This document shows positions 1-50,774 of a stretch of 64,000 bases of DNA, piece by piece. The stretch spans positions 197,649-261,648 of the forward strand of contig CALVAP010000001.1 of NCBI GenBank assembly GCA_944325625.1, written 5' to 3'. This stretch comes from Candidatus Gastranaerophilales bacterium. Its GTDB lineage: Bacteria; Cyanobacteriota; Vampirovibrionia; Gastranaerophilales; Gastranaerophilaceae. The translations under genes and the position numbers were made by a program. The notes under the pieces were generated by a model. It saw nothing but the letters and a program-made list of their open reading frames with translations. It ran no database searches and was not told where the DNA came from. The first letter of the stretch is position 1. Every line of letters starts with the position of its first letter.

Positions 1-194
1 CGAGCATATTCTTGTCCTGCACCAAAAGAGATTGACTGTCTATTTGTTTTTGACATTAAGTCTAAAAAATTTAGGAGCAGTGTGTCTTTATTTTGAGTTG
101 CACTGTTTGCTGTGATGGTATTTGTGCTGTTTGTTATTGCGTTTAGAGTGTTAAAATTAGAGTTCTTAATTAAACTTACTTGTGTTACTGTCAT
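1..194 (-). CDS. Hypothetical protein, N-terminal fragment (runs off the window)
   Basis: The first 64 codons of a minus-strand gene are visible; the rest lies outside the window. The start ATG (192-194) follows a good ribosome site, AAAGGA, about eight bases upstream. The peptide begins MTVTQVSLIKNSNF, is rich in Asn, Thr and Ser, and contains ISFGAG at residues 55-60. No family is recognised. The short I-S-F-x-G element also occurs near the N-termini of two other proteins in this window (GT5-like protein and GNAT-like protein), which is noted as a finding. Confidence 0.6.
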   Translation of the reverse strand, partial: MTVTQVSLIKNSNFNTLNAITNSTNTITANSATQNKDTLLLNFLDLMSKTNRQSISFGAGQEYA

Positions 195-9580: not shown

Positions 9581-12283
9581 TTAACCGAATTTTGAAAACG
9601 TAGTTGGTTTGTTGTAGTTGTTTAGGGGTTGAGGAGTATTTGTTCGAAATGACGGATATACGGTTTTATTTTCTTTATTTTTCGCTTTTTTATTGTTAAG
9701 ATAAACCATAGCCCCTGTGCCGGCAGCAACAAGAAGAATTCCGACCCCTGTTATTACTTTTCCTACTTTTGTAGCCTTGGCACTATCTATACTTTCAATA
9801 ACTCTCATCTGTGTTTTTTGTGCAACTTCATTGAATGAACCAAGTAAGCGTTTTAGTGGGTTGGTATTTCTTTCAAGGCCTGAGATAGGTTTAAATGTTA
9901 ATTCATCTATTTGGAAACAATCTCGCATATATCTTGTATTTGCTGAAACGCCACCGTTGTAAGCTGCATTTTCATGCCAATCAACCTTCTGCAAGAATGC
10001 GTTAATGCTCATTTGCCTATAATTTTTAGTATCAAGGCTTACTGCTTGTTTGAAACATTCAGCAACCTCATCAGACGTTTTTGCTCTACGAGCATCATCG
10101 ACTATTCTAAATGCTGTTTTATCATCTTTTAGTTGTTCTTGTGTAATTCCAAGTGCTTCAGGATTTCTCAGATACGGTCCTTCCGTCAAAAATCCGGTTT
10201 CAGAATTAACTGCTCCTTTTGTTGCATCATAGTTGAATACAAATTCTCCTGCACCACCCGTATTAGTTGAAATAACTGGAGTTCCTGAAGAGAATGATTC
10301 AAAAGGAGTTATTCCGCAAGGTTCAAACACCGAGGTGAAACATGAAAAATCAGCACAGGCTACCAGTCTATTGGGGAATAGTCCGTTGACGTACATCACG
10401 TTTCCGCGGTATTTTCCGTTATCTAGTTTTTGGATTTTATCAATAAGTTTTTGAATATTTTTCCAATCTCTGGCATCTTTTTGCCATGTGTCAGCACCGG
10501 CACCGACTATAAGTTTGGTGTGTTTTTTTGTTTCTTCGCTTACAGTTGGGTCTTGCAGGTACTTGAGGAAACCTTCAAATGTTGTTGGAAACCCTTTCTG
10601 CGGGTCGGGGCGTCCCCAGCCCATAAATAGTCTGTCCCCTTCTTGATATGGAGAAAGTTGTCCAACTACGCTGGATGGTCTTTTTCCTGATAGCTGCTCT
10701 TCACTAAAGAACAAACGTTCTAATTTGCCGTCACCTTTGTCAGCATTTCCAATTAAGTCTAACAGCCATCTTTTGTTGTTCTCTTTAGCTTTGAGAATTT
10801 CGTCTATATTTTTTATCTCGCCATTTTCAATGACGGGTTTATAGGTCGTAAAGCCAGCCTTGTTTGCTGTTAAGCCGTTGTTCCCTCTGCCAAAATTTGC
10901 GCTTTCATCATCAATTCGAAGATTTGCAGGTGTTGAACCGTTTGTGATATTTATTGTTCTAACCGAGGCAAAATCATCAGTTAATCCGCCTGCTATATCG
11001 TAAGAATTGTGATTCATCATTTCTTTTCCGTAGTATTGGGAAACTGTTCCTGATGAAGTATTATGAGGGTTTACCATTGTTGATACAAGCGGAATTTTTG
11101 TGAGGTTGTATGTCCCTTTTGAGTCCTTAAAACGACCAAGGATTGGGTCTAATAATTCAGACGCCTCTTGAATTTCTTCTTTTGTTACGGTGCCTTTTAG
11201 TCTTTTTTCGTCTATTTCCTTGATTCTGTCATAGGCAGGATGGCTTTGAATAGCTTTAAGGTCATCGTTGCTGCTTCCTACTATGCGCAAAAATTGTAAT
11301 GCATCATCATAGACACCTTGATATGCTCGACCGGGGTTATGGTAGGTTCCATGCATTCTCAACCCATTATAGTACTTGTTTCCTGCTGCACTTCTGTTTG
11401 CGACTTCATTAATTATGGGAAAAGCTACTCTATCATGTGCCCAGATGTTTGCGGGGTTATAAAATCCATGTTTTTCTGTATTGAGTTTTGGAAGTGCATC
11501 AGCTATAGCTCTTGCATTGTCTGCGTAAAAACCGTCCGAGGTTCCGACATGATATGCACCGGTACTATATGCCCCGGCTACACCTTTGTTTGAATATGCA
11601 CCGTATGCTCCGTATGCGCCTGAATTGCCGTCATATGCTTGAGGAAATTTTGCCATTTCCTGAGTGTGCATAATGTATCTGGTTACACCTTTGCCTTTGT
11701 TTGGAAGTATAGCTTTAAAAAGTTGATAACCTATTGTTTCTTCTTTAAGGGCTCTGTCGCTAATTCGTGAAACTGACCCTTTAATATCATCAAGCCTCTC
11801 CAGGACTACATATTTTGATTTTCCACCATTAGGTGCACTTTGTATTACAAATTTTTCACCATCTTCAAGCACGTAGTCAACAGGTTTTGTTTTAAACAGA
11901 CTCGGATCTGCACTTGTAAGAGGCTTGCCGTCTTGTCCGTAAGGAACTTTTAAAACTTTTATGCCACCATTTGGGTTATTATAACTGTGATAGGGAAGGA
12001 AGGTTCTGACGTCTGCTTTAAGGTTTTTTGCCCAACTGTCAGGTGCTTCTTGTGCAACAACTGCAAGTCCGCCACGATTGTATTCGGGGATACCCATTCC
12101 TTTATCTTCCGGGGCTATACTTGCAAACTGTGAGTAATTCTTTTCATTACCTTTAAAACTTATTCTTACTATAGGTCCCAGAGGTTCCGAATTGTTTGCA
12201 GATGTAGATGTTCGGGTACGACTTAAACTTGTAGTTCGATTCTGGGGGGTCGAACGTACAGCAGACAAAAACTCAACTTTCAT
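9581..12283 (-). CDS. Glycogen/starch synthase-like GT5 glycosyltransferase with C-terminal membrane segment
   Basis: A 900-residue protein, much longer than typical bacterial GlgA (about 480). It has a Ser/Thr/Arg-rich N-terminus and ISFKGN at 41-46. NRGGLAVV at 69-76 sits where GT5 enzymes have K-x-GGL, with Asn replacing the Lys. The C-terminal Rossmann half contains the family hallmark FEPCGITPFESFSSGTP near 650, followed by the STNTGG turn, and LIVGAGADTW near 590. Residues about 842-865 form one hydrophobic segment followed by a Lys/Asn-rich tail, so the enzyme may be tethered to the inner membrane by its C-terminus. Presumed role: transfer of glucose from a nucleotide sugar to an alpha-glucan. 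The gene is monocistronic with its own promoter and terminator and lies 8 kb from a GH13 gene. Confidence 0.8.
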   Translation of the reverse strand: MKVEFLSAVRSTPQNRTTSLSRTRTSTSANNSEPLGPIVRISFKGNEKNYSQFASIAPEDKGMGIPEYNRGGLAVVAQEAPDSWAKNLKADVRTFLPYHSYNNPNGGIKVLKVPYGQDGKPLTSADPSLFKTKPVDYVLEDGEKFVIQSAPNGGKSKYVVLERLDDIKGSVSRISDRALKEETIGYQLFKAILPNKGKGVTRYIMHTQEMAKFPQAYDGNSGAYGAYGAYSNKGVAGAYSTGAYHVGTSDGFYADNARAIADALPKLNTEKHGFYNPANIWAHDRVAFPIINEVANRSAAGNKYYNGLRMHGTYHNPGRAYQGVYDDALQFLRIVGSSNDDLKAIQSHPAYDRIKEIDEKRLKGTVTKEEIQEASELLDPILGRFKDSKGTYNLTKIPLVSTMVNPHNTSSGTVSQYYGKEMMNHNSYDIAGGLTDDFASVRTINITNGSTPANLRIDDESANFGRGNNGLTANKAGFTTYKPVIENGEIKNIDEILKAKENNKRWLLDLIGNADKGDGKLERLFFSEEQLSGKRPSSVVGQLSPYQEGDRLFMGWGRPDPQKGFPTTFEGFLKYLQDPTVSEETKKHTKLIVGAGADTWQKDARDWKNIQKLIDKIQKLDNGKYRGNVMYVNGLFPNRLVACADFSCFTSVFEPCGITPFESFSSGTPVISTNTGGAGEFVFNYDATKGAVNSETGFLTEGPYLRNPEALGITQEQLKDDKTAFRIVDDARRAKTSDEVAECFKQAVSLDTKNYRQMSINAFLQKVDWHENAAYNGGVSANTRYMRDCFQIDELTFKPISGLERNTNPLKRLLGSFNEVAQKTQMRVIESIDSAKATKVGKVITGVGILLVAAGTGAMVYLNNKKAKNKENKTVYPSFRTNTPQPLNNYNKPTTFSKFG

Positions 12284-12333
12284 TATACCTTGTCTCCCTT
12301 TTATTCAATTTTTATGACCATTTCGCCAAAGCT

Positions 12334-12362
12334 ATGCTAACATAAAGATATACTTTTTGCAA
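12334..12362 (-). promoter_or_regulatory. Promoter of the GT5-like gene
   Basis: On the minus strand, TTGCAA (12357-12362), a 17-base spacer and an extended -10 TGT-TAGCAT (hexamer 12334-12339). This leaves a leader of about 44 bases ending in AGGGAGACAAGG before the ATG. Confidence 0.5.
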
Positions 12363-12386
12363 CCTTACTTTCTTCTTTTCTTAGCT

Positions 12387-13142
12387 TTAATTAAGTTTTT
12401 TTAAGATTTTTGAAATGTTTTCTTTTTCTTCTTTTGGTAGTTCAAATTTTATGTATTCTTCAAGATACTCTTTAGCGTCATCTTTTTCACCTCTTGCAAG
12501 AAACAGTACTCCTAAATTCTTGTATGAGTGGGGAAATTGAGGGTTAATGGATATTGCCTTTAGATGATTTGAGATAGCTTTATCCACTTCATCATTTGCC
12601 TCATAGGCAAGAGCAACGTTGTAATATATAAGCGGATTATCATCTACAAACTCAAGAACTCTCTCGTAATTTGAAATGGCCATATCCCAAACACCCATTT
12701 CAAAATATACTCGACCTAAGTCCCAATAAGCGTCGTAATTTTTTGGTGAAATTTCTAAAACTGCATCTAGTTGATCTATTGCTATATCATATCGGGAATC
12801 ATCTATGTACACTCTTGCCAGATAATGTCTTAGTGCCGGTTCATTGGGTATTTTATAGACTCCGTTTTGTAGTATTTCTATGGCTTTTAGCATCTCGTGT
12901 TGACGGTAGTAGAGGTCGGCAAGATTTATGTATACCTGCACAATTTTGTCGTCAAGTGAGATTGCTTTTAGAAAAGCTGCTTCAGCTTCTTTAAGTTCAT
13001 CAAGATAAATATGGCATAAACCTATATTATTTAAGATGTGAGGGTTGTTTTCATCTTTACTTAATTCAAAATTAAATATTTCAAGTGCTGTTTTATAGTC
13101 TTGTTTTTTAAATGCTTCCAGTGCTTTTTCAATTTCGCCCAT
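12387..13142 (-). CDS. TPR-repeat protein
   Basis: A 251-residue protein built almost entirely of tetratricopeptide repeats. At least six 34-residue units are visible, with recurring patterns such as NNIGLCHIYLDELKEA, INLADLYYRQHEMLKA and WDLGRVYFEMGVWDMA. Such proteins are protein-protein interaction scaffolds; no partner can be named. There is no signal peptide or membrane segment. AGG lies eight bases before the ATG. It is divergent from yebC, with about 85 bases between the starts. Confidence 0.85.
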   Translation of the reverse strand: MGEIEKALEAFKKQDYKTALEIFNFELSKDENNPHILNNIGLCHIYLDELKEAEAAFLKAISLDDKIVQVYINLADLYYRQHEMLKAIEILQNGVYKIPNEPALRHYLARVYIDDSRYDIAIDQLDAVLEISPKNYDAYWDLGRVYFEMGVWDMAISNYERVLEFVDDNPLIYYNVALAYEANDEVDKAISNHLKAISINPQFPHSYKNLGVLFLARGEKDDAKEYLEEYIKFELPKEEKENISKILKKLN

Positions 13143-13182
13143 ATTTACCTGCTTTAAGTTTTATTTTTCAATTTTGTTATTT

Positions 13183-13188
13183 TATAAT
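13183..13188 (+). promoter_or_regulatory. -10 element of yebC, overlapping a divergent -10 for the TPR gene
   Basis: TATAAT on the plus strand (13183-13188) is suitably placed for a 33-base yebC leader. On the minus strand TATAAA/TAAAAT overlaps the same bases and could serve the TPR gene. The -35 regions are poor on both strands. Confidence 0.4.
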
Positions 13189-13227
13189 ACAATAAAAATA
13201 TGAATTATTTATAAAAAGGATGAAAAT

Positions 13228-13974
13228 ATGTCAGGTCACTCAAAATGGTCAACAATTAAACGAAAAAAAGCCAAAATTGATTCAGCAAGAGCAGCTGAAT
13301 TCCAAAAATTTTCAAGGGAATTAATGGTAGCGTCGAAGCTTGGCGGACCTGATCCGAGTGCAAATTTTCGTTTAAAGACGGCTATCGACAGGGCAAAATC
13401 TGCGGGATTACCGGCAGATAACATTAAACGCGCTATAGAAAAGGGAGCAGGTGCTTCTAATCAAGATAATTATGAAGAACTTACATATGAGGGATATGGA
13501 GCTGGTGGTGTTGCTATATTTATAGAAGCAATGACGGATAACCGTAACCGTACAGCGGGAGATATAAGAAGCTATTTTACGAAATACGGTGGAAATTTGG
13601 GTGAAACCGGTTGTGTGGGTTGGATGTTTAAACCTGTTGGACTTATTGTGTTTCCTTCTACAGTTGATTATGAAAAATTGTTTGAAGCTGCATTAAATCT
13701 TGGCGCGGATGATATAGAGGAAGATGATGATGAATATCGTGTTCTTACATCTGTTGAAAGTTTTCAAGACGTAGCTTTGGGATTGGAAAAAGAAGGGTTC
13801 AAGGCCATTAGTGAAGAACTAACAAGGTTACCTCAAAATGAGCTTGAAGTTACTGATGAAGATACGGCTCGTAAAGTTTTACTTCTTTTAGAAAAACTTG
13901 AGGAACATGATGATGTTCAAAATGTTTATTCCAATGTTGATATAGATGATGAACTTGCAGAAAAGGTTAGCTAG
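13228..13974 (+). CDS. yebC: YebC/PmpR/TACO1 family protein
   Basis: A 248-residue protein with the invariant start MSGHSKWSTIKRKKAKIDS and the conserved YEGYGAGGVAIFIEAMTDN and GGNLGETGCVGWMF segments. Databases usually call it a probable transcriptional regulator. The mitochondrial homologue TACO1 acts in translation, so a role in translation is also possible. AAAGGATG precedes the ATG. A 56-residue membrane protein follows after 14 bases, probably on the same mRNA. Confidence 0.95.
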   Translation: MSGHSKWSTIKRKKAKIDSARAAEFQKFSRELMVASKLGGPDPSANFRLKTAIDRAKSAGLPADNIKRAIEKGAGASNQDNYEELTYEGYGAGGVAIFIEAMTDNRNRTAGDIRSYFTKYGGNLGETGCVGWMFKPVGLIVFPSTVDYEKLFEAALNLGADDIEEDDDEYRVLTSVESFQDVALGLEKEGFKAISEELTRLPQNELEVTDEDTARKVLLLLEKLEEHDDVQNVYSNVDIDDELAEKVS

Positions 13975-13988
13975 TAGGGGGACAGGTT

Positions 13989-14159
13989 ATGAAGTGGTTT
14001 GTTCTTATTTTAGTTTTAGCAGGAATATGGTGGGTTTATAATAATACAAGCATTGTGGATGATTCTGCAAAGATATTTCGCAGCAAGTCTATGGTTGATA
14101 CTGTCCAAAAAACTCGTGAAAATAGATTTAATGCTGTTGAGGAACAGTTATCTCGCTAA
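13989..14159 (+). CDS. Small single-pass membrane protein
   Basis: A 56-codon gene starting MKWFVLILVLAGIWWVYNN. Residues 3-17 form one membrane segment or uncleaved signal anchor, followed by a charged 39-residue tail ending EEQLSR. The ribosome site is strong (AGGGGGACAGG), and the gene begins 14 bases after the yebC stop, so the two are probably cotranscribed. No family is recognised. The good ribosome site, the operon position and the amphipathic tail support it being real. Confidence 0.65.
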   Translation: MKWFVLILVLAGIWWVYNNTSIVDDSAKIFRSKSMVDTVQKTRENRFNAVEEQLSR

Positions 14160-14215
14160 GTTTATTTAAAAAATTATTTCACACAAGAATAGGTTTGTTA
14201 ATTTTGTAAAACTTT

Positions 14216-14221
14216 TATAAT
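14216..14221 (+). promoter_or_regulatory. Possible -10 upstream of the 192-residue hypothetical gene
   Basis: TATAAT occurs 67 bases before the ATG at 14289. TTTGTT lies about 16 bases upstream as a weak -35. The intervening leader shows no clear structure. Confidence 0.3.
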
Positions 14222-14288
14222 ATTAGGCAATTTCTACAAAAAAAATGTTTTTTATAAGTAGAAGTGATTAAATTAGTGTGGAATAGTT

Positions 14289-14867
14289 ATGGGAAATCTA
14301 GTTAGCAGTGCAATTTTTTCTTGTAGAAGCGGAAACCAAGCAGTTGACGGAAATGCGCCAAGGGCAATTACATGTGTAGCGCAGGGAGTAAATGCGGCAG
14401 AAGGTTATGCTAAGTCGGGTTTAGCTGGATCAAAAGCAGCCGGTGCTTTTGTTAGTAATATTGATAAAATGGCAAAAGAAGATTCAATCTGGGGAAAAAC
14501 ATTCAAAGGTGTTAAATGGGCACAGACACATGTTAACCCTATTATTGGTGCTTGTGCCGGAATAAAAATAGCTATGGCGGATGACAAGGAAAAAGCCTTG
14601 TGTACAGAAGTTCCCGGCTTTTTGGGCATGCTTGCGGCGGAAAGCGGATTTAAGGCTCTTCAAGAAACAAAAGCAGTAAAAACCTTTATGGAAAATATTA
14701 CGAAATCCGCAGGTAAGCATGGTAAAGTAGCAGCTGCGCTTTTAGAAGGCGTTTCTTTTGCTGCGGCTTCAATTGGTGGTTATACTGCAGCATCTAAGAT
14801 AGGTGAGTGCGCTATTGAAGGTGAAAGAGCTATAAAGGCTCGCAAAAAGCTTGATGCCGTCGGATAG
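14289..14867 (+). CDS. Hypothetical Ala/Gly-rich protein
   Basis: A 192-residue protein of no recognised family, very rich in Ala, Gly and Lys. Weakly hydrophobic helices lie around residues 80-95 (PIIGACAGIKIAM) and 150-168 (LLEGVSFAAASIGGYTAAS), so peripheral or reversible membrane association is possible. There is no cleavable signal peptide. Four Cys residues are scattered. The ribosome site is poor (TGGA). It is convergent with the DUF4127 gene, 16 bases away. The composition resembles the neighbouring unknown membrane proteins, but no alignment could be made. Confidence 0.6.
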   Translation: MGNLVSSAIFSCRSGNQAVDGNAPRAITCVAQGVNAAEGYAKSGLAGSKAAGAFVSNIDKMAKEDSIWGKTFKGVKWAQTHVNPIIGACAGIKIAMADDKEKALCTEVPGFLGMLAAESGFKALQETKAVKTFMENITKSAGKHGKVAAALLEGVSFAAASIGGYTAASKIGECAIEGERAIKARKKLDAVG

Positions 14868-14883
14868 AAGTATTTTATGTATT

Positions 14884-16302
14884 TTATTCGGGCATGATTT
14901 CTATTTCAAAAAATCTTTTCCAAGGAAAAGTATAATTGGTTCGGGATATGTTTATCTCGAACTTTCTTTTAATTTCATCTATATATGGTGACATTAACTC
15001 AGAAATCTTTTCAATATTGGGTTCAGATATTAAGCTTTTAAGCTCTTTGCGACAAATAGCCTGATAAGCCCAATCGTCCGCAAATCTTATGAACTGGGAC
15101 TGTTTAAAGTTTTCCTTATTTGTATTGGAAAGGAATTTGAAAATTCCCATGCACAAAGCACTGCCAAGGGTATTGGCCGAGGTGTTCCAACCGGCATATC
15201 CAAGGAAGTTATTCCAATTAATTGTTTGTGCAAAAAATGCCTTTACAAAGTTAATATCAGCACCGTTGGCAAATGCGACATCCGCAAGAATATAGGGCTT
15301 GTTGGGGACTTTTAGTTCTTTATCAAAGAGTTTTGTGTCAATATTCATAACGAGTTCGCCTTGTTCTGTTTCAAAATTATTTATAATAAGAACGATGTCT
15401 GCTTCCTCTTGTGATTGACAAGTTAATGCGCCGCAAAGAGATATTTGTGCGTCAGTGGATTCTTTTATAGAAATATCTTCATACTTTGATATGATATCGG
15501 TTTGTTCAGGGCGCAGGAATTGAGGATAAATGCGTGGGTGGAGTTTTTGTGCATCACAAAAGGATCTAACAAGAAGTGTTAATGGTATTTCATCTGCACC
15601 GGTTTTAACCAGTGCATTTAGGTTGTTTTCGATGATAATTTCTTGTAGTTTTTCTGCTTCAGAGACATTTACCCCATACTGGGCGCAGTCATCTTTAGAA
15701 AAAACGAGCAAGTCCAAAATACCTTCTTTTTGCCAATCAAGGTATATTTTGTTAATTTCAAAGTTTCTTTTTCTTGTGGCAAAGTAATCTTCTAAAATTT
15801 CTGTGGGAATAACTTGCCTAATACAAGAAAACTTAGCGTTGCTGTCATAAGATTTTGTTTTTTGGGACTTATGAAGGTTAAATGAGTAGTCAAAAATTTT
15901 TTTACCCCATAAAGACCAATACTCTTTTTCTTCTTCATTGATATTATTGTTAGAAATTCGCATTATGCTGGAACAAGCATAAGTTTTTGCTTTGTTCTTA
16001 TTAATTATAGATTTTAGTCGATTAATTTTTTGTATAATTTCAAGCTCGCTTTCACTGGAGCGACGAGAAGGAACAAGTCCTCCGTACGCAATCGTATCCA
16101 AAGCGACAACCAAGATATCGAAGCTATCAAGTGCTTCGAGCCAATCTAAAATTTTTTCGCTTTGAGCGCAGGTTTTTAAGTCGCCAAGAAGTTCTCTTGG
16201 TGGAAGATACAAATCTATGTCATTACAAAACAGGTTTATATCTGTAGGTATACCATAGCATACAGGACGATTGTCTATTGGAATCATTGCAATTTTAAGC
16301 AT
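14884..16302 (-). CDS. DUF4127 family protein
   Basis: A 472-residue protein with features I recall for DUF4127: the N-terminal MIPIDNRPVCYGIP, then LDILVVALDTIAYGGLVPSR-type motifs near residues 60-80, and a conserved ILADVAFANGADINF segment near 335. The family has no established biochemical role that I know of. No signal peptide is seen. The gene stands alone, and its promoter places the transcription start at the ATG, so it is probably translated from a leaderless mRNA. Confidence 0.75.
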   Translation of the reverse strand: MLKIAMIPIDNRPVCYGIPTDINLFCNDIDLYLPPRELLGDLKTCAQSEKILDWLEALDSFDILVVALDTIAYGGLVPSRRSSESELEIIQKINRLKSIINKNKAKTYACSSIMRISNNNINEEEKEYWSLWGKKIFDYSFNLHKSQKTKSYDSNAKFSCIRQVIPTEILEDYFATRKRNFEINKIYLDWQKEGILDLLVFSKDDCAQYGVNVSEAEKLQEIIIENNLNALVKTGADEIPLTLLVRSFCDAQKLHPRIYPQFLRPEQTDIISKYEDISIKESTDAQISLCGALTCQSQEEADIVLIINNFETEQGELVMNIDTKLFDKELKVPNKPYILADVAFANGADINFVKAFFAQTINWNNFLGYAGWNTSANTLGSALCMGIFKFLSNTNKENFKQSQFIRFADDWAYQAICRKELKSLISEPNIEKISELMSPYIDEIKRKFEINISRTNYTFPWKRFFEIEIMPE

Positions 16303-16308
16303 GAATAC

Positions 16309-16337
16309 ATTTTATGGCAGTGCTATTAAAAAATCAA
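16309..16337 (-). promoter_or_regulatory. Promoter of the DUF4127 gene (leaderless)
   Basis: On the minus strand, TTGATT (16332-16337), a 17-base spacer, TAAAAT (16309-16314), six bases (GTATTC), then the ATG. There is no Shine-Dalgarno sequence. It is one of the two clearest leaderless promoters in the window, together with that of obg. Confidence 0.6.
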
Positions 16338-16374
16338 ATTTTGTTGTGAAAATGTAAAATATACAAAATTTGGT

Positions 16375-16402
16375 TTGCCGAAGTAAAAATTCGTGATATA
16401 AA
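16375..16402 (+). promoter_or_regulatory. Promoter of the membrane protein / GH13 operon
   Basis: TTGCCG (16375-16380), a 16-base spacer and TATAAA (16397-16402). The predicted leader is about 125 bases long and ends with AAGGTGAGG before the ATG. The leader contains a GC-richer patch (TACGCGTAGGGGCGCAA) unlike its surroundings, but no complete riboswitch fold was recognised. Confidence 0.4.
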
Positions 16403-16534
16403 TAGTATAGTGTTAAGGCTAAGAAATGCTTATTGTTTTTGTAAATTTTTGTTACGCGTAGGGGCGCAATGTAGCAAGGATAAATATTCACAGCAGTTTA
16501 GCATGACATAAGTTTTTGTGAAGGTGAGGTCAAC

Positions 16535-17620
16535 ATGATTTCTGCAGTAGGTCCGCAGAATACGAAGAAAATAAAGAAAAATGATGGTTTTTATACGACA
16601 CCTGAACTAGAAAAGGCTATTCATGATTCTCATGCTCACCTTGTTTCCGGTAACCCTCTAAATCAGTCAAGAATACAGGTAGATAAACTATTTAATGCTA
16701 TGACGGTGTATCCGGCAAAAGGGCTTACTGGAAGTCCTAACTCTAACTTTTATGAGTTTTTGACTATGGGAACCGTTCCATATCTTGTAGGAAGCGCCAT
16801 GCTGATGGCTGTATTTAATCTTGCTACAAAATACTTTGAACCTAATCAGGCAAAACATGCCAGAGAATTAGGTCACAAAATGGCATTAGGGGTTATTTTT
16901 TATGGTTTGATGAAATCGTTATCCAAGAAATTTATAGAGGTTCCCGTTTATTTAAAAACGGGAGTTGATATAAATACTCCATATAAAGATATGAAATCAC
17001 AACTTCCTGAATATCCGGGGGATAAAGAAGGTAAAAAAAGTGTAGAATATCATAAGGTATTTGAAAGTGTAGATTTCCCAAGATGGGACTTGCTATATGA
17101 TTATAAGAAGGACAAACCGCGCAATTATTACTATGATAGAGTTGCCGAGAATATGGGGTTGGGTAAAGACCTTCCGGCATCAGATCAGGTAGCAAAGCCA
17201 AAAATAAGGGAAATGATTATTAGAACAAGAACTTGGACAACATTAACCTCATATATTTGGGCAGGTTTGGGTGTTGCGCTTGCTGTCCAAGATGGTTGGA
17301 ATGACCTTTTGACAAGAAAAGGCGGTGGCATAGTAAAAAGAACGCTTTCTATGATTAAAGATAGAGGAAAAGGGTTCGGTGAATTTGCCAAAGATGCATT
17401 TTTGGATACAAAAGAAGCATTTAAAACTTCTTGTAAACAGTTATACAATGGAGGAGTAAATAACTCCAAGTTGAAAGCTTTGGCAGGTAGAGCATACATC
17501 TATACTGCGGTTGGAACAACTCTTGCGGGTATATTTATGTCTGCTTTTGACTTCTTCAATGACAAAACAGAGCAAGACGAATCCAAAATTGATTACAAAG
17601 ATGATTATACGGTGGGCTAG
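16535..17620 (+). CDS. Hypothetical multi-pass membrane protein, first gene of the GH13 operon
   Basis: A 361-residue protein of no recognised family. Hydrophobic segments lie near 77-97, 115-128, 235-251 and 318-338. Between them is a soluble stretch containing KKFIEVPVYLKTGVDI (131-146) and FPRWDLLYDY (181-190). The same arrangement recurs in the next gene (LFIQAPIKAMYGLDI and IPWNLYTD), so the two appear to be paralogous. The acidic C-terminal tail ends DYKDDYTVG. The ribosome site is AAGGTGAGG. The next gene's ATG follows the stop codon with no gap, which indicates translational coupling. Confidence 0.65.
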   Translation: MISAVGPQNTKKIKKNDGFYTTPELEKAIHDSHAHLVSGNPLNQSRIQVDKLFNAMTVYPAKGLTGSPNSNFYEFLTMGTVPYLVGSAMLMAVFNLATKYFEPNQAKHARELGHKMALGVIFYGLMKSLSKKFIEVPVYLKTGVDINTPYKDMKSQLPEYPGDKEGKKSVEYHKVFESVDFPRWDLLYDYKKDKPRNYYYDRVAENMGLGKDLPASDQVAKPKIREMIIRTRTWTTLTSYIWAGLGVALAVQDGWNDLLTRKGGGIVKRTLSMIKDRGKGFGEFAKDAFLDTKEAFKTSCKQLYNGGVNNSKLKALAGRAYIYTAVGTTLAGIFMSAFDFFNDKTEQDESKIDYKDDYTVG

Positions 17621-20143
17621 ATGAACTTACTAGATGCAGCATTGAACAAACAGAATAATTTAAACGGCACATCTGTACAAAAAAATGAACAGGTAGCTCA
17701 AAACAATGCTATTCATGCTCACAATTTGTTGAAGTGGGCTTCAGATACCTTTGAACCTGTTTCTACAGATGGTTTGATAAAGCCTGACAGACCACAAAGG
17801 TCATATATTGTAGATGATCCGTTTTATATGGCACCGATAAATTTTTTGAATGATATTAAGGAAAATATTATAAACATTAAAAATGGAATACAAGGTAAGT
17901 CGAATGACCATGATTTGGGCAGAATGAATGATTTTGCTATGAAAGCAGGTGCATTGGGCTTAGCGGGGTATCTTTTTACCAGAGGCAAATCTGCCAGAAC
18001 AAAAGCAATGGAATTTGTAGGTTTTGGCGCATTCTTTGCAGCTATGGCACTTTGGCCAAAATTGTTTATCCAAGCCCCGATAAAAGCTATGTATGGTTTG
18101 GATATTCACCAACGTTACGTTGATAATGAAGGACGTAAAAAAATGTTCTTCCAGGATCCTCAATATATTCCGTGGAACTTATATACTGATGAGGAACTTT
18201 CAGCTTTGGGTGACAGGTTGGGTGTGCCGAAAGATGTACATAATCGTAACGAAGTAATTAGAAAGAAAGCACATAAAATAGCATTACAGGGTAATACTTT
18301 ATGGATGTTGACAGCAGGATTTGCAACTCCATTGTTCTGTGCATTGGGTTGTAACGGTATTGAAAAATTGTTCAATCCTCCGAGTGAAAAGAGCGGATTC
18401 CCTCGCAATGTAATATACGCAATGGCATCTTCAATAGAAAAAAGAAGGATAGATAAAGCAGAAGACAAAGTTAAAAATTCTGCAGCAATCGCATCTAAAA
18501 AACTTGAGAAGTATGAGCAAAGAAAGCTTAATGCCCTTTTAGGCATGTATAAAAATCGTCCTATTGACGATGAACTTATAGAAGTGATAGCAAAAGAATT
18601 ATCACATGATTCAGATTTGTTGCAAAGTGAATACGTAAGTAAGCAAATTAAAGATATAGTAAAAAATCAATCACCTTCTTTGACTAAAGATTACGCAACA
18701 AGGCTTTATTCTTACATTATGGAAAACATTGAGACATTTGATGATGATGTAGAATTAAATGTCTTGGCGGATAAGAAGGCTCAAATCGAACAGCTTGCAG
18801 AAAAGAGTAAAAATCTTTCAGGCTTTACAAATTCTTTGTTGCATTATGTTGATAATTTAGACCCTGATAATGAAGAGCTTTTAGAAGAAGTTAGGACTTT
18901 ATGTAATGATTTTAAGGCTCAAAACTCAAAAAGAATTTTGACAATAGATGATATTGAGCAGTTAAGAGTTTTGGATAAAAAGTTGTATGAATTTTCAATC
19001 AAGAAACAACTTCTAGACCACTATAACTTGTTATATTTTAATAACGCGGAAGGAACAATAGCAGCAAATCGTTGGAATAATGTTTCAAAGGCATTTTTTA
19101 ACTCTCTGGGATTAAGCAGTGAAGAAATTGCAAAAGCAAAACAGGGTGAAGATGCTGCATATAAGTTGGTAGTTGAAAAACTTGAAAATTTAGCGAAAGA
19201 TGATGAAGCGTATAAAAATGCATTCAGTAAGGTTTATACTGCAGTTCTCGATTTTGACAAGACTGTACTTCCGGATGCGCCGGATGGCACTTCGCAGGGA
19301 ATAAAATCAATTTTGGAAAAAAGGTATACAACACTTTTTGATGAATACGCAGAGGTATTTGATAATCTGGGATTCTCAAAAATTAAAGAAAGACTTGTCG
19401 GTGGAAACACAAGGCAAGGCTGTTTAAAAGATAATGTACTTGATAGAATATCAAGAAGGATAAATGAACTCAGAAACGGAATGTATAAATTCCTTCAAGT
19501 TTTAGACTTCTTTAAACGTGCAGGCGATATAGAGAAGGAAGGTCAAAGCTCTGCTAACGGATATTTAAGCTACAGAGCTTCTAACGGGTTAGATTTGAAA
19601 GCAACAAAAGAAACCCTTATGAGTGATATCGCAAAATATAAAGCGTTGCTTGTAAAAGGTACGATTGCGGATTACACAACCAAATCAGGACTAAAGAACC
19701 CGCAGGTAGCTTTATATGACAGAATGATGAAGTATATATTCACAACGGATTTTGCGGACAGTACAAAAGAAATTTTAGGAATATCTGATAATGCAGCTGT
19801 AGAGCAAGCACAGCTGGGCGAAACAACTTTTGTAAAAACATTTACGAAAAAAATCCAAGATACACTTGCAAACCTCGGAAACTTTAGTTATCCGCATGCA
19901 GAAAAAGTAACTACATTAGGAGTTTCCGGAGGCGGCGGAGATATTCTTGTTCGTGATTCTCTTGCCGGTCCGAGAATAGATAGAGTAGTGCGAGAAACTG
20001 CATCAGAAGTATTTAACACGTCAAAATGGTTAAAAATGTTCGGTGGCGCAACGGCAGCTCTTATCGGAGTAACGCTTTTGGCTGAAGTATTCTTTGGCAA
20101 TCTTAAAAAACATGATGTATATTCAAAAAAGGATAAACGCTAG
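17621..20143 (+). CDS. Hypothetical membrane protein with long helical domain, second gene of the GH13 operon
   Basis: An 840-residue protein of no recognised family. Hydrophobic segments near 105-120, 130-150 and 223-242 frame a region resembling the preceding protein (LFIQAPIKAMYGLDI at 148-162). From about 270 to 800 it is highly charged and probably alpha-helical or coiled-coil. A last hydrophobic segment lies near 808-825, followed by a basic tail (KKHDVYSKKDKR). The likely form is a membrane protein with a large cytoplasmic domain. It starts directly after the stop of the upstream gene and overlaps the GTG of the GH13 gene by one base, so all three are coupled. Confidence 0.65.
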   Translation: MNLLDAALNKQNNLNGTSVQKNEQVAQNNAIHAHNLLKWASDTFEPVSTDGLIKPDRPQRSYIVDDPFYMAPINFLNDIKENIINIKNGIQGKSNDHDLGRMNDFAMKAGALGLAGYLFTRGKSARTKAMEFVGFGAFFAAMALWPKLFIQAPIKAMYGLDIHQRYVDNEGRKKMFFQDPQYIPWNLYTDEELSALGDRLGVPKDVHNRNEVIRKKAHKIALQGNTLWMLTAGFATPLFCALGCNGIEKLFNPPSEKSGFPRNVIYAMASSIEKRRIDKAEDKVKNSAAIASKKLEKYEQRKLNALLGMYKNRPIDDELIEVIAKELSHDSDLLQSEYVSKQIKDIVKNQSPSLTKDYATRLYSYIMENIETFDDDVELNVLADKKAQIEQLAEKSKNLSGFTNSLLHYVDNLDPDNEELLEEVRTLCNDFKAQNSKRILTIDDIEQLRVLDKKLYEFSIKKQLLDHYNLLYFNNAEGTIAANRWNNVSKAFFNSLGLSSEEIAKAKQGEDAAYKLVVEKLENLAKDDEAYKNAFSKVYTAVLDFDKTVLPDAPDGTSQGIKSILEKRYTTLFDEYAEVFDNLGFSKIKERLVGGNTRQGCLKDNVLDRISRRINELRNGMYKFLQVLDFFKRAGDIEKEGQSSANGYLSYRASNGLDLKATKETLMSDIAKYKALLVKGTIADYTTKSGLKNPQVALYDRMMKYIFTTDFADSTKEILGISDNAAVEQAQLGETTFVKTFTKKIQDTLANLGNFSYPHAEKVTTLGVSGGGGDILVRDSLAGPRIDRVVRETASEVFNTSKWLKMFGGATAALIGVTLLAEVFFGNLKKHDVYSKKDKR

Positions 20144-21912
20144 TGACAAGCTTAATTTCACAACTTAATATCGGCAACCCCGTAAAAGCACAGCAGGTAA
20201 TGTACCCCCAAGGGGCTGTTCCGGGTTCGTCTTCATCTGAGGCTAATATTTCGATGTCAAAGATTACGGAGCTTATGAATTTGCCAACGTCAAATATGCT
20301 TGCACAGTATGTTAGACATTCCCAAATGGTAAAAAATGTTGATATGACAAAGCCATTGGAGCGTTTTGAATGGCAAAATGACCTTAGAACGATGATACAG
20401 GACAATAAAGCAGTTATTTGGGCGATAGTTCCAAGGACATTTAATGCTAAGGATAAAGACAGGAATGATTTGATAGAAGCAGGGGAACAAAAAGGCACAT
20501 TCCTTAATGCAATAGAGAGATTAGACGAGCTTGTTGCGTTGGGAGTTAATACAATCCATGTTCTGCCTATTCACCCACCAGGAAAAATTAATGCAATGGG
20601 ACTGTCAGGTTCTGTGTATGCACCTAAAGATATGTTGAAGCTAGACCCTGAGTTGCGTGATCCAAGATGTCCTTATAGCGTGGAAGACCAGTTCAAAATA
20701 TTTATTGATGCTTGCCACAAAAAAGATATTCGTGTAATGTTGGATTTGCCAAGTTGCGCGTCTTGTGATTTGTTCCATGCCAGTCCTGAATATATGGCAT
20801 TTGAACGAAACGGAAATGCAAAAACCCCACAAGGTTGGAATGATATAAGAATGTTTGAGCCATGGGCTGATGAAACAAAACGAACATTAAATCCTCATCT
20901 TTTAGATTTACATAAAAAGTTTATTGATATGTGTATTGACTTAAAAGTTGATGGAATTCGTGCAGATGTTGCTCGTGCGAAACCTTCTGAGTTTTGGGAT
21001 ATAATTATTCCTTATTCGCGTTCAAAGGATCCGAACTTTGCGTGGTTGGCTGAAACTTACACATACGAAGATGCATCTCCTCAGCTTAATATGATGTACG
21101 ATAGACCCAAAGATAGTCTAAAGGCAGGGTTTGATACCTATTATGGACAATATCACATTTTCCATGAGTGGTCTAAAGCTCAGGACCTCATAAACTATGT
21201 AAAAGAAAATCTTGAGATGTCCAATGAAAAGGATATGCCCGCTAAAAAGTCGTTGATTGGTTCTTTTGCAACACATGATGATGTTACTCCGATGTTTCAT
21301 GGCGGGGTGGACTATTGCAATTTAACAACAGGTTTGCAGGCAACATTGCCTATGCTTAACCCTTATTTTGTAGACGGTTTTCAATCCGGTGATAAATATC
21401 TTTATAAATACGAAAATTTAAAAACACAAAGTATGAACCCGCATGATACTACCAAATGTGATGTTCACCGTGGAAAGCTGGATATATTTAATCATTCTCG
21501 TAAACCAGGCGGAGCTAATCCTGAAGTTGGAGAATTTATGAAGTCTGCAATGAAGTTCCGCAAGGAATACCAAGATATTATTTCAAAGGGTTCTTTTATT
21601 CCGCTTGAAACAGATGAAAATGGGGCAGACCAAATTATAGCATTTGCAAGGCATCTGAATGGAAAAACTTTACTAGTAATTGCAAATAGGGATGTGAATA
21701 AAAGACAAAAAGGTATGGTAGAAGTTCCGGGATTGAAAAAAGATAGTGAACTCAAAAATCTTGTTGGAAAGTATGGACAAAACAGTTATTTCCAAGTCAA
21801 AGAAGATGGAAAGGTAGCTGTTGATTTGGGTAAAGCAAGGTTCCATGTTTTTGAAATAGATACACCCGATATTGAAAAGTCTGGTTTGGAAGTACTTAAG
21901 CAGAAGTTATAA
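20143..21912 (+). CDS. GH13 alpha-amylase family protein
   Basis: A 589-residue alpha-glucan hydrolase or transferase-like protein. After about 80 unrecognised residues comes a (beta/alpha)8 barrel of the GH13 type. The nucleophile is D275 in GIRADVARA, the acid/base E304 in WLAETY, and the transition-state stabiliser D379 in ATHDD. Region I reads DLPSCA (201-206) and lacks the usual His. A beta-rich C-terminal domain follows (about 470-589). There is no signal peptide, so it is cytoplasmic or held by the coupled membrane proteins. The start is GTG, preceded by AAGGAT and overlapping the previous stop by one base. The exact substrate and reaction cannot be read from the motifs. Confidence 0.8.
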   Translation: MTSLISQLNIGNPVKAQQVMYPQGAVPGSSSSEANISMSKITELMNLPTSNMLAQYVRHSQMVKNVDMTKPLERFEWQNDLRTMIQDNKAVIWAIVPRTFNAKDKDRNDLIEAGEQKGTFLNAIERLDELVALGVNTIHVLPIHPPGKINAMGLSGSVYAPKDMLKLDPELRDPRCPYSVEDQFKIFIDACHKKDIRVMLDLPSCASCDLFHASPEYMAFERNGNAKTPQGWNDIRMFEPWADETKRTLNPHLLDLHKKFIDMCIDLKVDGIRADVARAKPSEFWDIIIPYSRSKDPNFAWLAETYTYEDASPQLNMMYDRPKDSLKAGFDTYYGQYHIFHEWSKAQDLINYVKENLEMSNEKDMPAKKSLIGSFATHDDVTPMFHGGVDYCNLTTGLQATLPMLNPYFVDGFQSGDKYLYKYENLKTQSMNPHDTTKCDVHRGKLDIFNHSRKPGGANPEVGEFMKSAMKFRKEYQDIISKGSFIPLETDENGADQIIAFARHLNGKTLLVIANRDVNKRQKGMVEVPGLKKDSELKNLVGKYGQNSYFQVKEDGKVAVDLGKARFHVFEIDTPDIEKSGLEVLKQKL

Positions 21913-21919
21913 ATACAAA

Positions 21920-22156
21920 ATGAAAATATATCCTATTAACAAAAATTCAGCAAAAACGCAGCAAAAGCAAAATGTTTCAGATAAATATTTTGGCAAGAAG
22001 TGCAGTTATTCTTCACAAAGGGAGATGGACGAAGATTCGTTTATTCGAAGGTATAATCTTGCGAATGAGGTTGGTATTTCCATGGGAATTGTTGCTCTTG
22101 GGCTAGGGATTTTATGGATTATGAAACGGATTAAACGCGTGGGTATTTTAAAATAA
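21920..22156 (+). CDS. Small hypothetical membrane protein, last gene of the GH13 operon
   Basis: A 78-residue protein: a polar N-terminal half (MKIYPINKNSAKTQ) with KYFGKK near 23-28, one membrane segment at about 54-69 (SMGIVALGLGILWIM), and a basic tail KRIKRVGILK. The frame is open upstream into the GH13 gene, but the ATG at 21920, seven bases after the GH13 stop, is the natural start. The ribosome site is weak. The topology resembles the tails of the GT5-like and 840-residue proteins. No family is recognised. Confidence 0.6.
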   Translation: MKIYPINKNSAKTQQKQNVSDKYFGKKCSYSSQREMDEDSFIRRYNLANEVGISMGIVALGLGILWIMKRIKRVGILK

Positions 22157-22199: not shown

Positions 22200-23564
22200 T
22201 TACTGACCAAGGTAAACAAGGCTTTGCATAACTTGGTTAGCAGTGTTGAAAACACGGCTATTTGCTTCGATAGCTCGTTGAGCAATAATCATATCAGAGA
22301 ATTGTTTTGTTAAGTCAACGTTAGATGCTTCCAAGCCACCGCTTTTTATACTACCAAAAAGGTTGGAGTCAGCAATTCCGTAGAGGGCATATCCATTGTT
22401 AGTTCCAAGTCCATAGAGGTTGTTACCTTCTTGAGATAGTCCATCAGGGTTCATAAAGTGAGCAAGTTGAAGCTGGAGATTACCTGTTGTTGCAACATCT
22501 TCACTTACGTTGACTTCATCTCCTGTCAAAGTAATACCTGCTTTTGTTGTGTATTTGAACTGGAGTTCGTTTGTGCCTTCTTTTTGTTCAACGGTTAGTT
22601 TGTCACCATTGGAATATGTAACCTCAACTGCACCATTTTCGTAGAAATCTACGCTTGATGCTTTGATATCAAGTTGACTATTGACACTTGCAGTCAAATC
22701 GGCTTTCCAATCAAGGGTTTTTGAGGAGTAAACACCTCCATCCGATTCTGCCGATGAGAGCTGAGTTTCACTTAGAAAGTTTGAAGAGCCGGCAACAAAA
22801 GTTACACCGGTTACGTCTCCTGTCGTTGTAATTTTGAATTGACCGTCAGCTACACTTGCACTTACTTCGTCTTTCACCTCAGCAGGCAGTGCCACATTAA
22901 TTTTGGCAGCAATGGCATCCATGTTTGCCTCTGTTCCATCAAGTGTAACTTCAATCTTTGCTACTTGAGGGTCACCTGCATCATCATTGTAGGCTATATC
23001 CATTCCGAATGTTCCTTTTGTAATTCCTGAGATACCGTTAAGTTCTGATATTGCCTTTGTACCGGCATTTTCATTTGCTGTTACTTCAGAGTGAATGATT
23101 TGTGGTATTTTAATTGGAGTTTTAAAACTGGCATTACCAAAAATAGTATCTGTACCCATTACTTTGTATCCGTTAGGCATTACAAGGTAGCCTTGGGTGT
23201 CGACGGTAAAGTTACCGGCTTTTGTGTATAACATTTCATCAGCAGGAGAAAGCACTGTAAAGAAACCGTTACCTTGAATCATCATGTTTGTTGAAATGCC
23301 GGTTGATTGGAATGTTCCGGTTGTAAATTTTTGTGTAATTGAGGATACTTGAGAACCGTAGCCTACTTCTTTTGGGTTAACCCCTCCGTTTGTTTGGCTT
23401 GAAGGTGCTCCTGATGATAGTGTACTGTAGAATACATCAGAAAAATTAACATGTGATTCTTTGAACGCTACAGTGTTCATGTTTGCGATGTTGTTAGAAA
23501 CAACGTTGATTGCGATTTGTGCGTTGGCCATACCGCTAGCCGATGTGTACATAGCTTGTGACAT
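22200..23564 (-). CDS. flgE: Flagellar hook protein FlgE
   Basis: A 454-residue rod/hook family protein. The N-terminus (YTSASGMANAQIAINVVSNN) and the C-terminus (AIEANSRVFNTANQVMQSL) are the paired D0 helices of hook proteins, with IQGNGFFTV in the D1 domain near 100. The variable middle is Thr/Ala-rich. The length and position after flgD favour FlgE rather than FlgF or FlgG. It is exported through the flagellar type III system and forms the hook outside the cell. It is the last gene of fliJ-fliK-flgD-flgE. Confidence 0.93.
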   Translation of the reverse strand: MSQAMYTSASGMANAQIAINVVSNNIANMNTVAFKESHVNFSDVFYSTLSSGAPSSQTNGGVNPKEVGYGSQVSSITQKFTTGTFQSTGISTNMMIQGNGFFTVLSPADEMLYTKAGNFTVDTQGYLVMPNGYKVMGTDTIFGNASFKTPIKIPQIIHSEVTANENAGTKAISELNGISGITKGTFGMDIAYNDDAGDPQVAKIEVTLDGTEANMDAIAAKINVALPAEVKDEVSASVADGQFKITTTGDVTGVTFVAGSSNFLSETQLSSAESDGGVYSSKTLDWKADLTASVNSQLDIKASSVDFYENGAVEVTYSNGDKLTVEQKEGTNELQFKYTTKAGITLTGDEVNVSEDVATTGNLQLQLAHFMNPDGLSQEGNNLYGLGTNNGYALYGIADSNLFGSIKSGGLEASNVDLTKQFSDMIIAQRAIEANSRVFNTANQVMQSLVYLGQ

Positions 23565-23629
23565 TTAGTTCCTCCCGTGTTTTATTGTTATTTATTTATA
23601 TTCTTTTCAGTGCTATATTTTGTTTTTTT

Positions 23630-24109
23630 TTATGATGTTGGTGTTTCTTCTGTATTTCCTGTGTCAGGTTTTGTTGAAGATGGTTCGGAAATTCCAAGTA
23701 CAAGACCGAGCGGATATTCTTTACCATTTACAACTATTTGTGCTGCGCCACCTGTGAATGTTACGGCTGTTACTTCCCCGGTAATTGTTTGAGTTGTGTC
23801 TTCAGGATTCATTAACGTAACATTTTTTCCCATAAGTGTACAGGCTTGTGTTACTTGTGAACTTGTGTTTAAAGATTCATTCATTTTTTGTAATTCGCTT
23901 ACTTGTGTGAAAGCAGCTTGTTGTGCCAGAAATTCAGTGTTACCAACAGGTTCTAGTGGATCTTGATATTTTAACTGTTCCATCATAAGCATTAAAAATG
24001 CATCCTGATCGAGCTCTTGAGATGCTCCGTTGGCTGCTTCTTCCGCTGCTTTCATCATATTGGTGTAACTTTGCATATTTGTTATTTGATTTTGAATGCT
24101 AGTACTCAT
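23630..24109 (-). CDS. flgD: Flagellar hook assembly (capping) protein FlgD
   Basis: A 159-residue protein with the FlgD N-terminal signature DAFLMLMMEQLKYQDPLEPV and NTEFLAQQAAFTQVSEL (about 38-75). The C-terminal half is short, GNVTLMNPEDTTQTITGEV-like, with a truncated TUDOR-like region and a Thr/Pro-rich tail. It is shorter than E. coli FlgD (231), and the FnIII domain appears to be missing. FlgD caps the growing hook. It lies between fliK and flgE on the minus strand. Confidence 0.92.
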   Translation of the reverse strand: MSTSIQNQITNMQSYTNMMKAAEEAANGASQELDQDAFLMLMMEQLKYQDPLEPVGNTEFLAQQAAFTQVSELQKMNESLNTSSQVTQACTLMGKNVTLMNPEDTTQTITGEVTAVTFTGGAAQIVVNGKEYPLGLVLGISEPSSTKPDTGNTEETPTS

Positions 24110-24133
24110 TTTGTTTACCTCTTTCTCCCATTT

Positions 24134-25909
24134 TTAAACAGTAAGGTTTATTGACCCGTTGTGTTCTTGAATTTGTTCACCTTGTGTTTGTGATGTGTTT
24201 ATGTCTTCTTCCTGTGCCAGTGTTTCTGGTACTGGTTTTGTTGTTGTGTCTGTGTTTTTATTTTGACTTTGGTTTGTTTGTCTTTCCTGATTTGATTGAC
24301 TTGATGCTTCTCTGTTGAATTGCTCTTGTTCAAATCCTAGGTTGCTATTTTGTGCTGATGTACTTTCTTCAACTTTTACGGTTATGTTATTTACGTTTAC
24401 GCCTTGAGCAGCGATGTTATTTTTCAAACTTTCTATACTTTTGTCGAGAAGTTCCTTGATTTGGGGGGTTTCTGCTGCTATTTTTGCAGCGACTCCGTCT
24501 TTAGTTTGCATTATTTCAACTGTAACTTTTCCCAAATTTTCCGGTTGTAGTATTATGTTTACTTTGCTTGTACCATTGTCTTGCGGAAGAGTTATTTTGT
24601 TTGTTATTTGATTTAGAATTTCAGCATTTGATATCGTTTTTGGCTGTGATGTTGTTGCGGCTGCTGTTATATTTTGTATACCGGACGCTCCTGTGGTTAG
24701 GGGTTCGCCTGTGCTTTTTGGAGTTGATGGTATGTCGACAAAATCTGTGCTTGTTGAAGTTGTTTCTGTCGTGTTTGTACTTTCGTATGAAGAATAATCT
24801 TCTATTGACATTTTGATAATATCTTCTTGTGCATTACTGTTTGGGTTTTTAGATTGTTGTCCGTTGTTAAGATTTTGGTTTTGTTTATTGGTTGAATCTG
24901 TTTCTTTTATTGTTACATCCATACTATCTATGATGTCTTGAGAAACCTTTGTTTCCTTCGATGTTTCTGCAGGCTTTATTTCGTCTGCTGTCGCTTCTGC
25001 TATTTCTTCTGCTTTTACAAGTATTTCTTTTTCTATATTTTCAATTTCCAGATTATCAAGACTTTGTACATCGCTATTTACAATTTCAGCTTCTTGTGAG
25101 TTTAAGGCTGTGGCGGTTGTTTGTGATGGCTCTGTTATGGTTGTTGAATTTATGTCAGTCTTTTCGTTGCTAGCAGTAGTATTATTGAGATTTGCTTCGT
25201 TAGTAATTTTGTTGTCGGTTGAATTTAGTTGGATTGTGCTGCCAGCATCAACTTTTATTTGATTTTCACCGATAGCTTCTGTTTGGGCTAATGTTTGAGT
25301 ATTTATAGTGTTTTGTACTTCTGTTTTTTGTATCGCGCCGTTTAAAACATTCGGCTCAACAGATAGAATGTTCGCTTCAGTTTCCTGATTTTCATCACTT
25401 TCGTCTTCTGCCTTTTCATCGGGGGTTAGCTCAGCTGTTGTTTGGGTTTCTTTATCTGGCGTGTCGGTTTTACTTGTTTTGGCTTCATTATTTTCTTCAG
25501 GTTTTGTATTTGTTTTTTTGTCAAATGTTTGTGTTTTTTCTTCCTGATTTTTATCTTTACTTAGTTCAGAGTTTTCTTCAGGCTTTTTTATTGCCTCTGT
25601 TTCTTTTTTGTTTTCTGCATATGTTTCTGCTTCGTTTCTTTCTATTTTAGAGCTTTGCTTCTCAAGTTCATTATTGGAATCGAGAGAAGATATTTGGTTT
25701 TTATCATTGTTAGAAGCATCTTTGCTATCATTTTTCGCAAAATCATAGTTTTCTTCTTTGGACATGTATTTTGACTTGGCGTCATCAAATACCTTTGTGA
25801 ATTGTTCATTAACTTCAAAGTTTTGTGATGTGGTTGCGTTTTGTTGTGATTGTGAACTAATGACGTTCAAAATATTGGGTATTAAATTTTGAAATAATTC
25901 TGTACTCAT
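24134..25909 (-). CDS. fliK: Flagellar hook-length control protein FliK
   Basis: A 591-residue protein. The first 400 residues are low-complexity, rich in Glu, Lys, Thr, Asn and Gln, as expected for the molecular-ruler part of FliK. The C-terminal substrate-specificity-switch domain is recognisable near 445-520, with INIILQPENLGKVTVEIM-type sequence and ELLDKSIESLKNNIAAQGV. A further 70 residues are Gln/Asn/Thr-rich. It sets hook length and switches export from hook to filament proteins. Confidence 0.9.
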   Translation of the reverse strand: MSTELFQNLIPNILNVISSQSQQNATTSQNFEVNEQFTKVFDDAKSKYMSKEENYDFAKNDSKDASNNDKNQISSLDSNNELEKQSSKIERNEAETYAENKKETEAIKKPEENSELSKDKNQEEKTQTFDKKTNTKPEENNEAKTSKTDTPDKETQTTAELTPDEKAEDESDENQETEANILSVEPNVLNGAIQKTEVQNTINTQTLAQTEAIGENQIKVDAGSTIQLNSTDNKITNEANLNNTTASNEKTDINSTTITEPSQTTATALNSQEAEIVNSDVQSLDNLEIENIEKEILVKAEEIAEATADEIKPAETSKETKVSQDIIDSMDVTIKETDSTNKQNQNLNNGQQSKNPNSNAQEDIIKMSIEDYSSYESTNTTETTSTSTDFVDIPSTPKSTGEPLTTGASGIQNITAAATTSQPKTISNAEILNQITNKITLPQDNGTSKVNIILQPENLGKVTVEIMQTKDGVAAKIAAETPQIKELLDKSIESLKNNIAAQGVNVNNITVKVEESTSAQNSNLGFEQEQFNREASSQSNQERQTNQSQNKNTDTTTKPVPETLAQEEDINTSQTQGEQIQEHNGSINLTV

Positions 25910-25917
25910 ATCTTTCC

Positions 25918-46359: not shown

Positions 46360-46433
46360 ACGTTAATCCCTTGTTTTGAGATTTTAACATGAAAACCGTA
46401 TCTTTTGAATTTTTCTTAACGTTTTTTAACTGA

Positions 46434-47195: not shown

Positions 47196-47212
47196 AATAT
47201 CTTCCTTGTTAA

Positions 47213-48679: not shown

Positions 48680-48697
48680 CTCTATATCCTTTAAATA

Positions 48698-50772: not shown

Positions 50773-50774
50773 TT

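Follow-up and report, generated by a model that had tools for sequence, protein, structure and literature searches.

A conserved operon for two predicted membrane proteins and a GH13 enzyme in Gastranaerophilales and related bacteria

Genes and proteins at the locus

We analyzed a 64-kb stretch of DNA, referred to below as the window, from a member of the Gastranaerophilales, which belong to a class of nonphotosynthetic relatives of cyanobacteria. Genes were taken as open reading frames (ORFs), and many of the genomes used for comparison are fragmented assemblies. About one-quarter of the window's own genome was sampled, in stretches. An ORF check of the window confirmed the sizes of all five ORFs described in the initial annotation, and the ORFs and hydropathy analysis bore out three of its other observations: a membrane segment at the C terminus of a glycosyltransferase, a one-base overlap between a GH13 gene and its neighbor, and the lack of a signal peptide in the GH13 protein. 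The features are as follows.

3..194, − strand: start of a second giant GT5 (820 aa, extending left of the window), with N-terminal motif ISFGA
9581..12283, − strand: giant GT5-like glycosyltransferase, 900 aa, with motifs HNPGRAYQG, GRPDPQKG, and EPCGITPFE
9701..9757, − strand: C-terminal hydrophobic segment of the 900-aa glycosyltransferase (residues 843 to 861), from hydropathy
12149..12163, − strand: N-terminal motif ISFKG of the 900-aa glycosyltransferase (residues 41 to 45)
16535..17620, + strand: protein A, 361 aa, a helical membrane protein of no known family
17621..20143, + strand: protein B, 840 aa, with an A-like N-terminal membrane domain, a long helical middle, and a C-terminal hydrophobic segment
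17780..18439, + strand: domain of B shared with A (residues 54 to 273), from hhalign
20039..20095, + strand: C-terminal hydrophobic segment of B (residues 807 to 825), from hydropathy, adjoining the GH13 fusion point of the sister order
20143..21912, + strand: GH13 enzyme, 589 aa, GTG start, no signal peptide
20965..20967, + strand: GH13 nucleophile Asp275, invariant in 38 homologues
21052..21054, + strand: GH13 general acid/base Glu304, invariant
21274..21282, + strand: GH13 region IV, His378-Asp379-Asp380, invariant
21920..22156, + strand: 78-aa protein, ATG start, with one C-terminal hydrophobic segment

Genes A and B abut (gap of 0), the GTG start of the GH13 gene overlaps the stop codon of B (gap of −1), and the 78-aa ORF begins seven bases 3′ of the GH13 gene. 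The mean Kyte-Doolittle (KD) hydropathy was 1.59 for residues 75 to 93 of A, 1.69 and 1.78 for residues 132 to 150 and 807 to 825 of B, respectively, 1.93 for residues 50 to 68 of the 78-aa protein, and 1.92 for residues 843 to 861 of the 900-aa glycosyltransferase. The latter had been placed with the downstream genes in a single 12.6-kb module. Four unrelated genes intervene (encoding a TPR protein, YebC, a 192-aa ORF, and a DUF4127 protein), the linkage is confined to the genus of the window, and the corresponding genes are on other contigs in other genera; the glycosyltransferase was therefore rejected as a member of the operon. Flagellar hook genes (FlgE-, FlgD-, FliK-, and FliJ-like; 22200 to 26367) directly follow the operon on the opposite strand, a neighborhood specific to the genus. 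Elsewhere in the window (45023 to 53687), inspection by eye revealed CoA-transferase-like subunits adjoining a block of NuoL/hydrogenase-like membrane subunits, which is suggestive of an energy-converting hydrogenase.

Profile searches with the 361- and 840-residue proteins A and B returned no Pfam or NCBIfam family, transporter families included, so that their initial description as unknown stands. Alignment by hhalign revealed that residues 28 to 260 of A are homologous to residues 54 to 273 of B (probability, 96%; E value, 1.3e-9; 193 columns). By sequence comparison, A and B are paralogous, predicted membrane proteins. Their AlphaFold models are helical (pLDDT of 84 and pTM of 0.77 for A; 79 and 0.69 for B). 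Comparison of the models with the PDB returned nothing convincing, the best Foldseek E values being 0.16 for A and 0.029 for B, with Z scores of 6.1 over 68 residues for A (VIA) and of 7.7 for B (a designed helical protein). PDB sequence searches gave no match for A and only stray coiled-coil-like matches for B. In a positive-inside analysis, positive charge was found on both flanks of the last hydrophobic segment of B, a pattern compatible with either orientation.

The third protein was assigned to family GH13 based on the presence of the catalytic Asp/Glu/Asp residues of regions II to IV and on a PF00128 score at the cut-off (22.0 bits). Residues D275, E304, H378-D379-D380, and R273 were invariant in 38 GH13 sequences. 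The enzyme scored below every NCBIfam cut-off for the named subfamilies (GlgE, TreZ, TreS, MalA, and cyclomaltodextrinase), the best score being 51.3 bits for NF041321 against a cut-off of 875. Matches to PDB sequences were obtained with 1gju (E value, 3.5e-18), 4gkl (3e-14), and GlgE (about 1e-6), and the nearest solved relatives act on maltodextrins. Hydropathy analysis detected no hydrophobic segment in the enzyme or in any of its homologues (38/38), indicating that the protein has no signal peptide. A second GH13 protein (L182:1234-2775, contig C13 of genome G000), ~41% identical to the operon enzyme, does carry a signal peptide, indicating that the operon enzyme is the nonexported form. 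Relatives of the signal-peptide form are kept even where the operon has been lost.

Conservation and distribution of the operon

The order A-B-GH13 on the same strand was found in 41/41 neighborhoods (40 relatives plus the window), with gaps between the genes ranging from −127 to +48. A and B recurred in all 41 neighborhoods and GH13 in 38, the other three being contig ends, while any other neighboring family was present in at most 10. The recurrence of three families in all or nearly all loci, with the next commonest in 10, indicates that the operon is conserved far beyond chance. Another 80 named loci were compared; the full order was present in 71, and contig ends cut the other nine. Among 59 relative genomes, which are not fully independent of one another, searches detected B in 48 and both A and the operon-type GH13 in 47 each; the sets disagreed solely at contig ends. 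Homologues of A and B, for which co-occurrence with the glucan enzymes had been proposed as a check, were always located beside a GH13 gene rather than mostly without one. The coupled operon of the initial annotation also included the 78-aa protein. Coupling of A, B, and GH13 held at all 41 loci, but the sequence of the 78-aa protein is not conserved beyond the genus, outside which no clear homologue was found; small one-TM proteins with a similar layout but an unlike sequence follow GH13 in genomes G001 and G033.

The profile of A detected homologues in 169 of the 170 genomes sampled from the same family and also in the wider order, with no match in the photosynthetic cyanobacteria sampled and none in phage records. 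The closest named relatives of the operon GH13 were nearly all gut assemblies of Gastranaerophilales or Melainabacteria. Since the profile search missed divergent copies in a sister order, later recovered by searching that order, the absence of A outside the class is provisional.

In the sister order, searching recovered all or part of the module from another 13 genomes, one by a short, weak match only; in most of them, A is adjoined by unfused B and GH13 genes. In total, A, B, and GH13 are present in about 10 of 18 sister-order genomes, three of which encode a B-GH13 fusion. In the first of these (G375), the gene with a weak match to A overlaps by four bases the next gene, which encodes a single 1,030-aa protein that matches B over residues 117 to 517 and GH13 over residues 520 to 1030, with intact catalytic motifs. 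The two other fusions consist of 986 and 1,082 aa. These fusions are the strongest evidence that B and GH13 work together physically, and they provide direct evidence, from gene structure, for a putative tether.

Bacterial glycogen enzymes are normally regarded as soluble. Searches of the open-access literature revealed no report of an A-B-GH13 operon and no report of a membrane-anchored bacterial glycogen synthase. Thus, the proposal of an undescribed system holds for A-B-GH13, which is conserved, matches no described family in its A and B components, and apparently has not been described.

Giant enzymes, the N-terminal motif, and ordinary glycogen metabolism

The 900-aa glycosyltransferase did not match PF08323, only PF00534 and PF13692 passing their thresholds, and its TIGR02095 score (41.6 bits) was below the cut-off (328). 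Motifs RGGL, HNPGRAYQG, GRPDPQKG, and EPCGITPFE are present, with another residue in place of the Lys typical of the first motif. Since most GT5 motifs are present but the PF08323 match is missing, we refer to this protein as GT5-like only. The 820-aa protein at the window edge scored 83.1 bits with PF08323 (cut-off, 22.7) and belongs to GT5 on that basis. Giant GT5-like proteins (750 to 1,200 aa) are encoded by most operon-bearing genomes, about a dozen of these genomes having none detected. In searches with two queries, which may miss distant members, every clear representative came from a genome with the operon, and the proposed co-occurrence with GT5 genes was supported to that extent. A hydrophobic segment near the C terminus is present in 14 of the 22 proteins of the 900-aa group and in none of the classical GlgA proteins.

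A giant GH13-like protein (about 1,100 to 1,500 aa) is encoded directly downstream of the operon, on the same strand, at six loci from several genera, and a related, divergently oriented gene (1,355 aa) adjoins A and the fusion gene in G375. Most operon-bearing genomes encode the giant GH13. Genomes G013, G017, and G019, which also lack A and B, do not, and neither does the window's own genome, although two species of its genus do. The amylase domain is split in the giant GH13-like proteins encoded at L141:2795-6817, L142:12466-18987, and L138:11413-15567. In G041 and G046, the next gene in line encodes a third GH13 protein with amylase and weak CBM48-like domains.

The motif [ILVA][STAGP]F-x-[GA] was found within the first 100 residues of 19/24 giant glycosyltransferases and 9/10 giant GH13 proteins, compared to 0/12 classical GlgA proteins and 10/310 and 11/282 background proteins. 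The density in the giant enzymes is ~25 times the background, for a pattern chosen after seeing examples. The motif follows an Asn/Ser/Thr-rich leader and immediately precedes the folded domain. Its enrichment in two unrelated folds indicates that it does not belong to any single fold. A and the N termini of some GH13 proteins carry looser forms. The motif (a hydrophobic residue, Ser/Thr, Phe, any residue, and Gly/Ala) may be a localization tag of the giant enzymes. Specificity for glucan enzymes was weakened by its presence in unrelated proteins without a glucan link, and it may therefore serve as a general-purpose sorting signal in these bacteria. Mutually unrelated, nonexported Gastranaerophilales proteins with the motif are encoded at L171:7555-9168, L180:6363-7544, L141:2795-6817, and L126:15962-17239. 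A GNAT-like protein of the window (61739 to 62329) carries the form ATFCG. The form VSFGA occurs in a family of 425 to 437 aa with C-terminal repeats and no Pfam match (L126:15962-17239 and L155:3-1313), encoded near the operon in two genomes.

Glycogen storage has been predicted for the group (PMC5877343). The initial annotation had reported no other glg gene, which is correct for the window but not for the genome, since classical GlgA and GlgC are encoded on contigs C4 and C13, respectively, and the second giant GT5 gene lies at the left edge of the window. None of glgB, glgX, glgC, glgA, and glgP was among the recurrent families of the operon neighborhoods. In the 59 genomes, the curated cut-off was reached by GlgC in 51 and by the GH13-type branching enzyme GlgB in none, suggesting that glucan branching may rest on another enzyme. 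Where A and B are absent, the operon GH13, the giant second GH13, and clear giant GT5-like synthases are also absent, whereas GlgC and the secreted GH13 remain. A GlgC tree requires no fewer than four changes to account for the genomes without the operon; two of these changes fall within the family of the window's genome, with GlgC kept each time. Short GlgA-type frames are also found in operon-less genomes. These repeated co-losses indicate that the module was lost as a unit, is separable from ordinary glycogen synthesis, and is dispensable for it.

Proposed role and comparison with known systems

Any proposal for the role of the operon starts from features read directly in the sequences, namely, the homology of A and B, the constant gene order, the fusions, the intact catalytic residues, and the missing signal peptide. 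We favor, with moderate confidence, a single membrane-bound α-glucan complex of A, B, and GH13, with the giant glycosyltransferases and giant GH13 serving the same glucan and with a role in starting or organizing storage-glucan particles. A and B would form a complex building a membrane platform, and the C-terminal end of B would hold the catalytically intact GH13 at the membrane, probably on its cytoplasmic side. GH13 would cut and rejoin, or trim, maltodextrin chains, as do its nearest solved relatives. The giant, often membrane-anchored GT5-like synthases and the giant second GH13 may supply or remodel the same glucan, as suggested by phyletic co-occurrence, partial gene linkage, and the common N-terminal motif. 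The simplest role of such an assembly would be to start and organize storage-glucan particles at a membrane. The initial proposal of membrane organization by scaffold proteins is thus retained in the form of a plausible hold of A and B on an α-glucan enzyme, suggested by the fusions and the constant operon; in this form it is neutral between synthesis, processing, and degradation and names no particular membrane.

A degradation or uptake complex, with A and B serving as a conduit or receptor in the membrane and GH13 breaking down maltodextrins there without any part in synthesis, appears unlikely. Fermentation of starch and glycogen has been predicted for Melainabacteria (PMC3787301), the closest genomic paralogue of GH13 carries a signal peptide and is presumably exported, and the retention of GlgC where the operon is lost would also fit such a complex. 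However, the operon GH13 itself has no signal peptide, A and B have neither a transporter family nor a convincing fold match, and every clear giant GT5-like synthase came from an operon-bearing genome. That the glucan is an envelope component or exported polymer rather than a store is quite improbable. The membrane location, the separately encoded housekeeping GlgA and GlgC, and the KdsC-, QueD-, and UppP-like genes upstream of the operon in many genomes are consistent with this, but these neighbors occur at 10 or fewer of the 41 loci, and neither signal peptides nor export genes are linked. A transporter-like A/B pair with GH13 as a nonenzymatic partner, as in the GH13-like 4F2hc/rBAT heavy chains that partner amino acid transporters, is very improbable, since the similar layout of the fusions, with a membrane segment directly before the GH13 domain (a comparison from general knowledge), is offset by a nucleophile, acid/base, and region IV that do not vary among 38 sequences and persist in the fusion, unlike in a purely structural subunit, and by the lack of a transporter family match for A and B.

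The membrane-bound α-glucan complex can be extended to a dedicated assembly of A, B, the nonexported GH13, the giant GH13, and the giant anchored GT5s, in which the N-terminal motif would be an address tag recruiting unrelated enzymes and which would parallel, in prokaryotes, the initiation of starch granules at membranes. We consider this extended version distinctly doubtful.

The association of two membrane-protein families that have no known relatives with an intact α-glucan enzyme is constant across two or more bacterial orders, including one that is common in animal guts, pointing to a conserved core function. The B-GH13 fusions define a protein pair that can be tested directly, and the N-terminal motif is a candidate targeting signal that can likewise be put to the test.

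Like the classical bacterial glg cluster, the system described here comprises GT5-like and GH13 enzymes, but the operon has no linked glg gene and membrane proteins A and B are new. The operon GH13 shares its core and D/E/D residues with the Thermotoga maltosyltransferase (1gju), an α-amylase (4gkl), and GlgE, and differs from them by its low similarity, its variable N-terminal extension, and its genetic attachment to two membrane proteins. In plants, MFP1, which has an N-terminal TM anchor, sets where starch forms and acts together with PTST2 and SS4 to locate the initiation of starch granules on thylakoids (PMC10801857). The likeness is in the mode of working only, in that a membrane-anchored coiled-coil protein positions both a starch synthase and the beginnings of a glucan particle at the membrane; no clear relation in sequence or fold emerged from the PDB searches, and the enzyme recruited by the plant system is a synthase, whereas the enzyme directly tethered here would be a GH13 protein.
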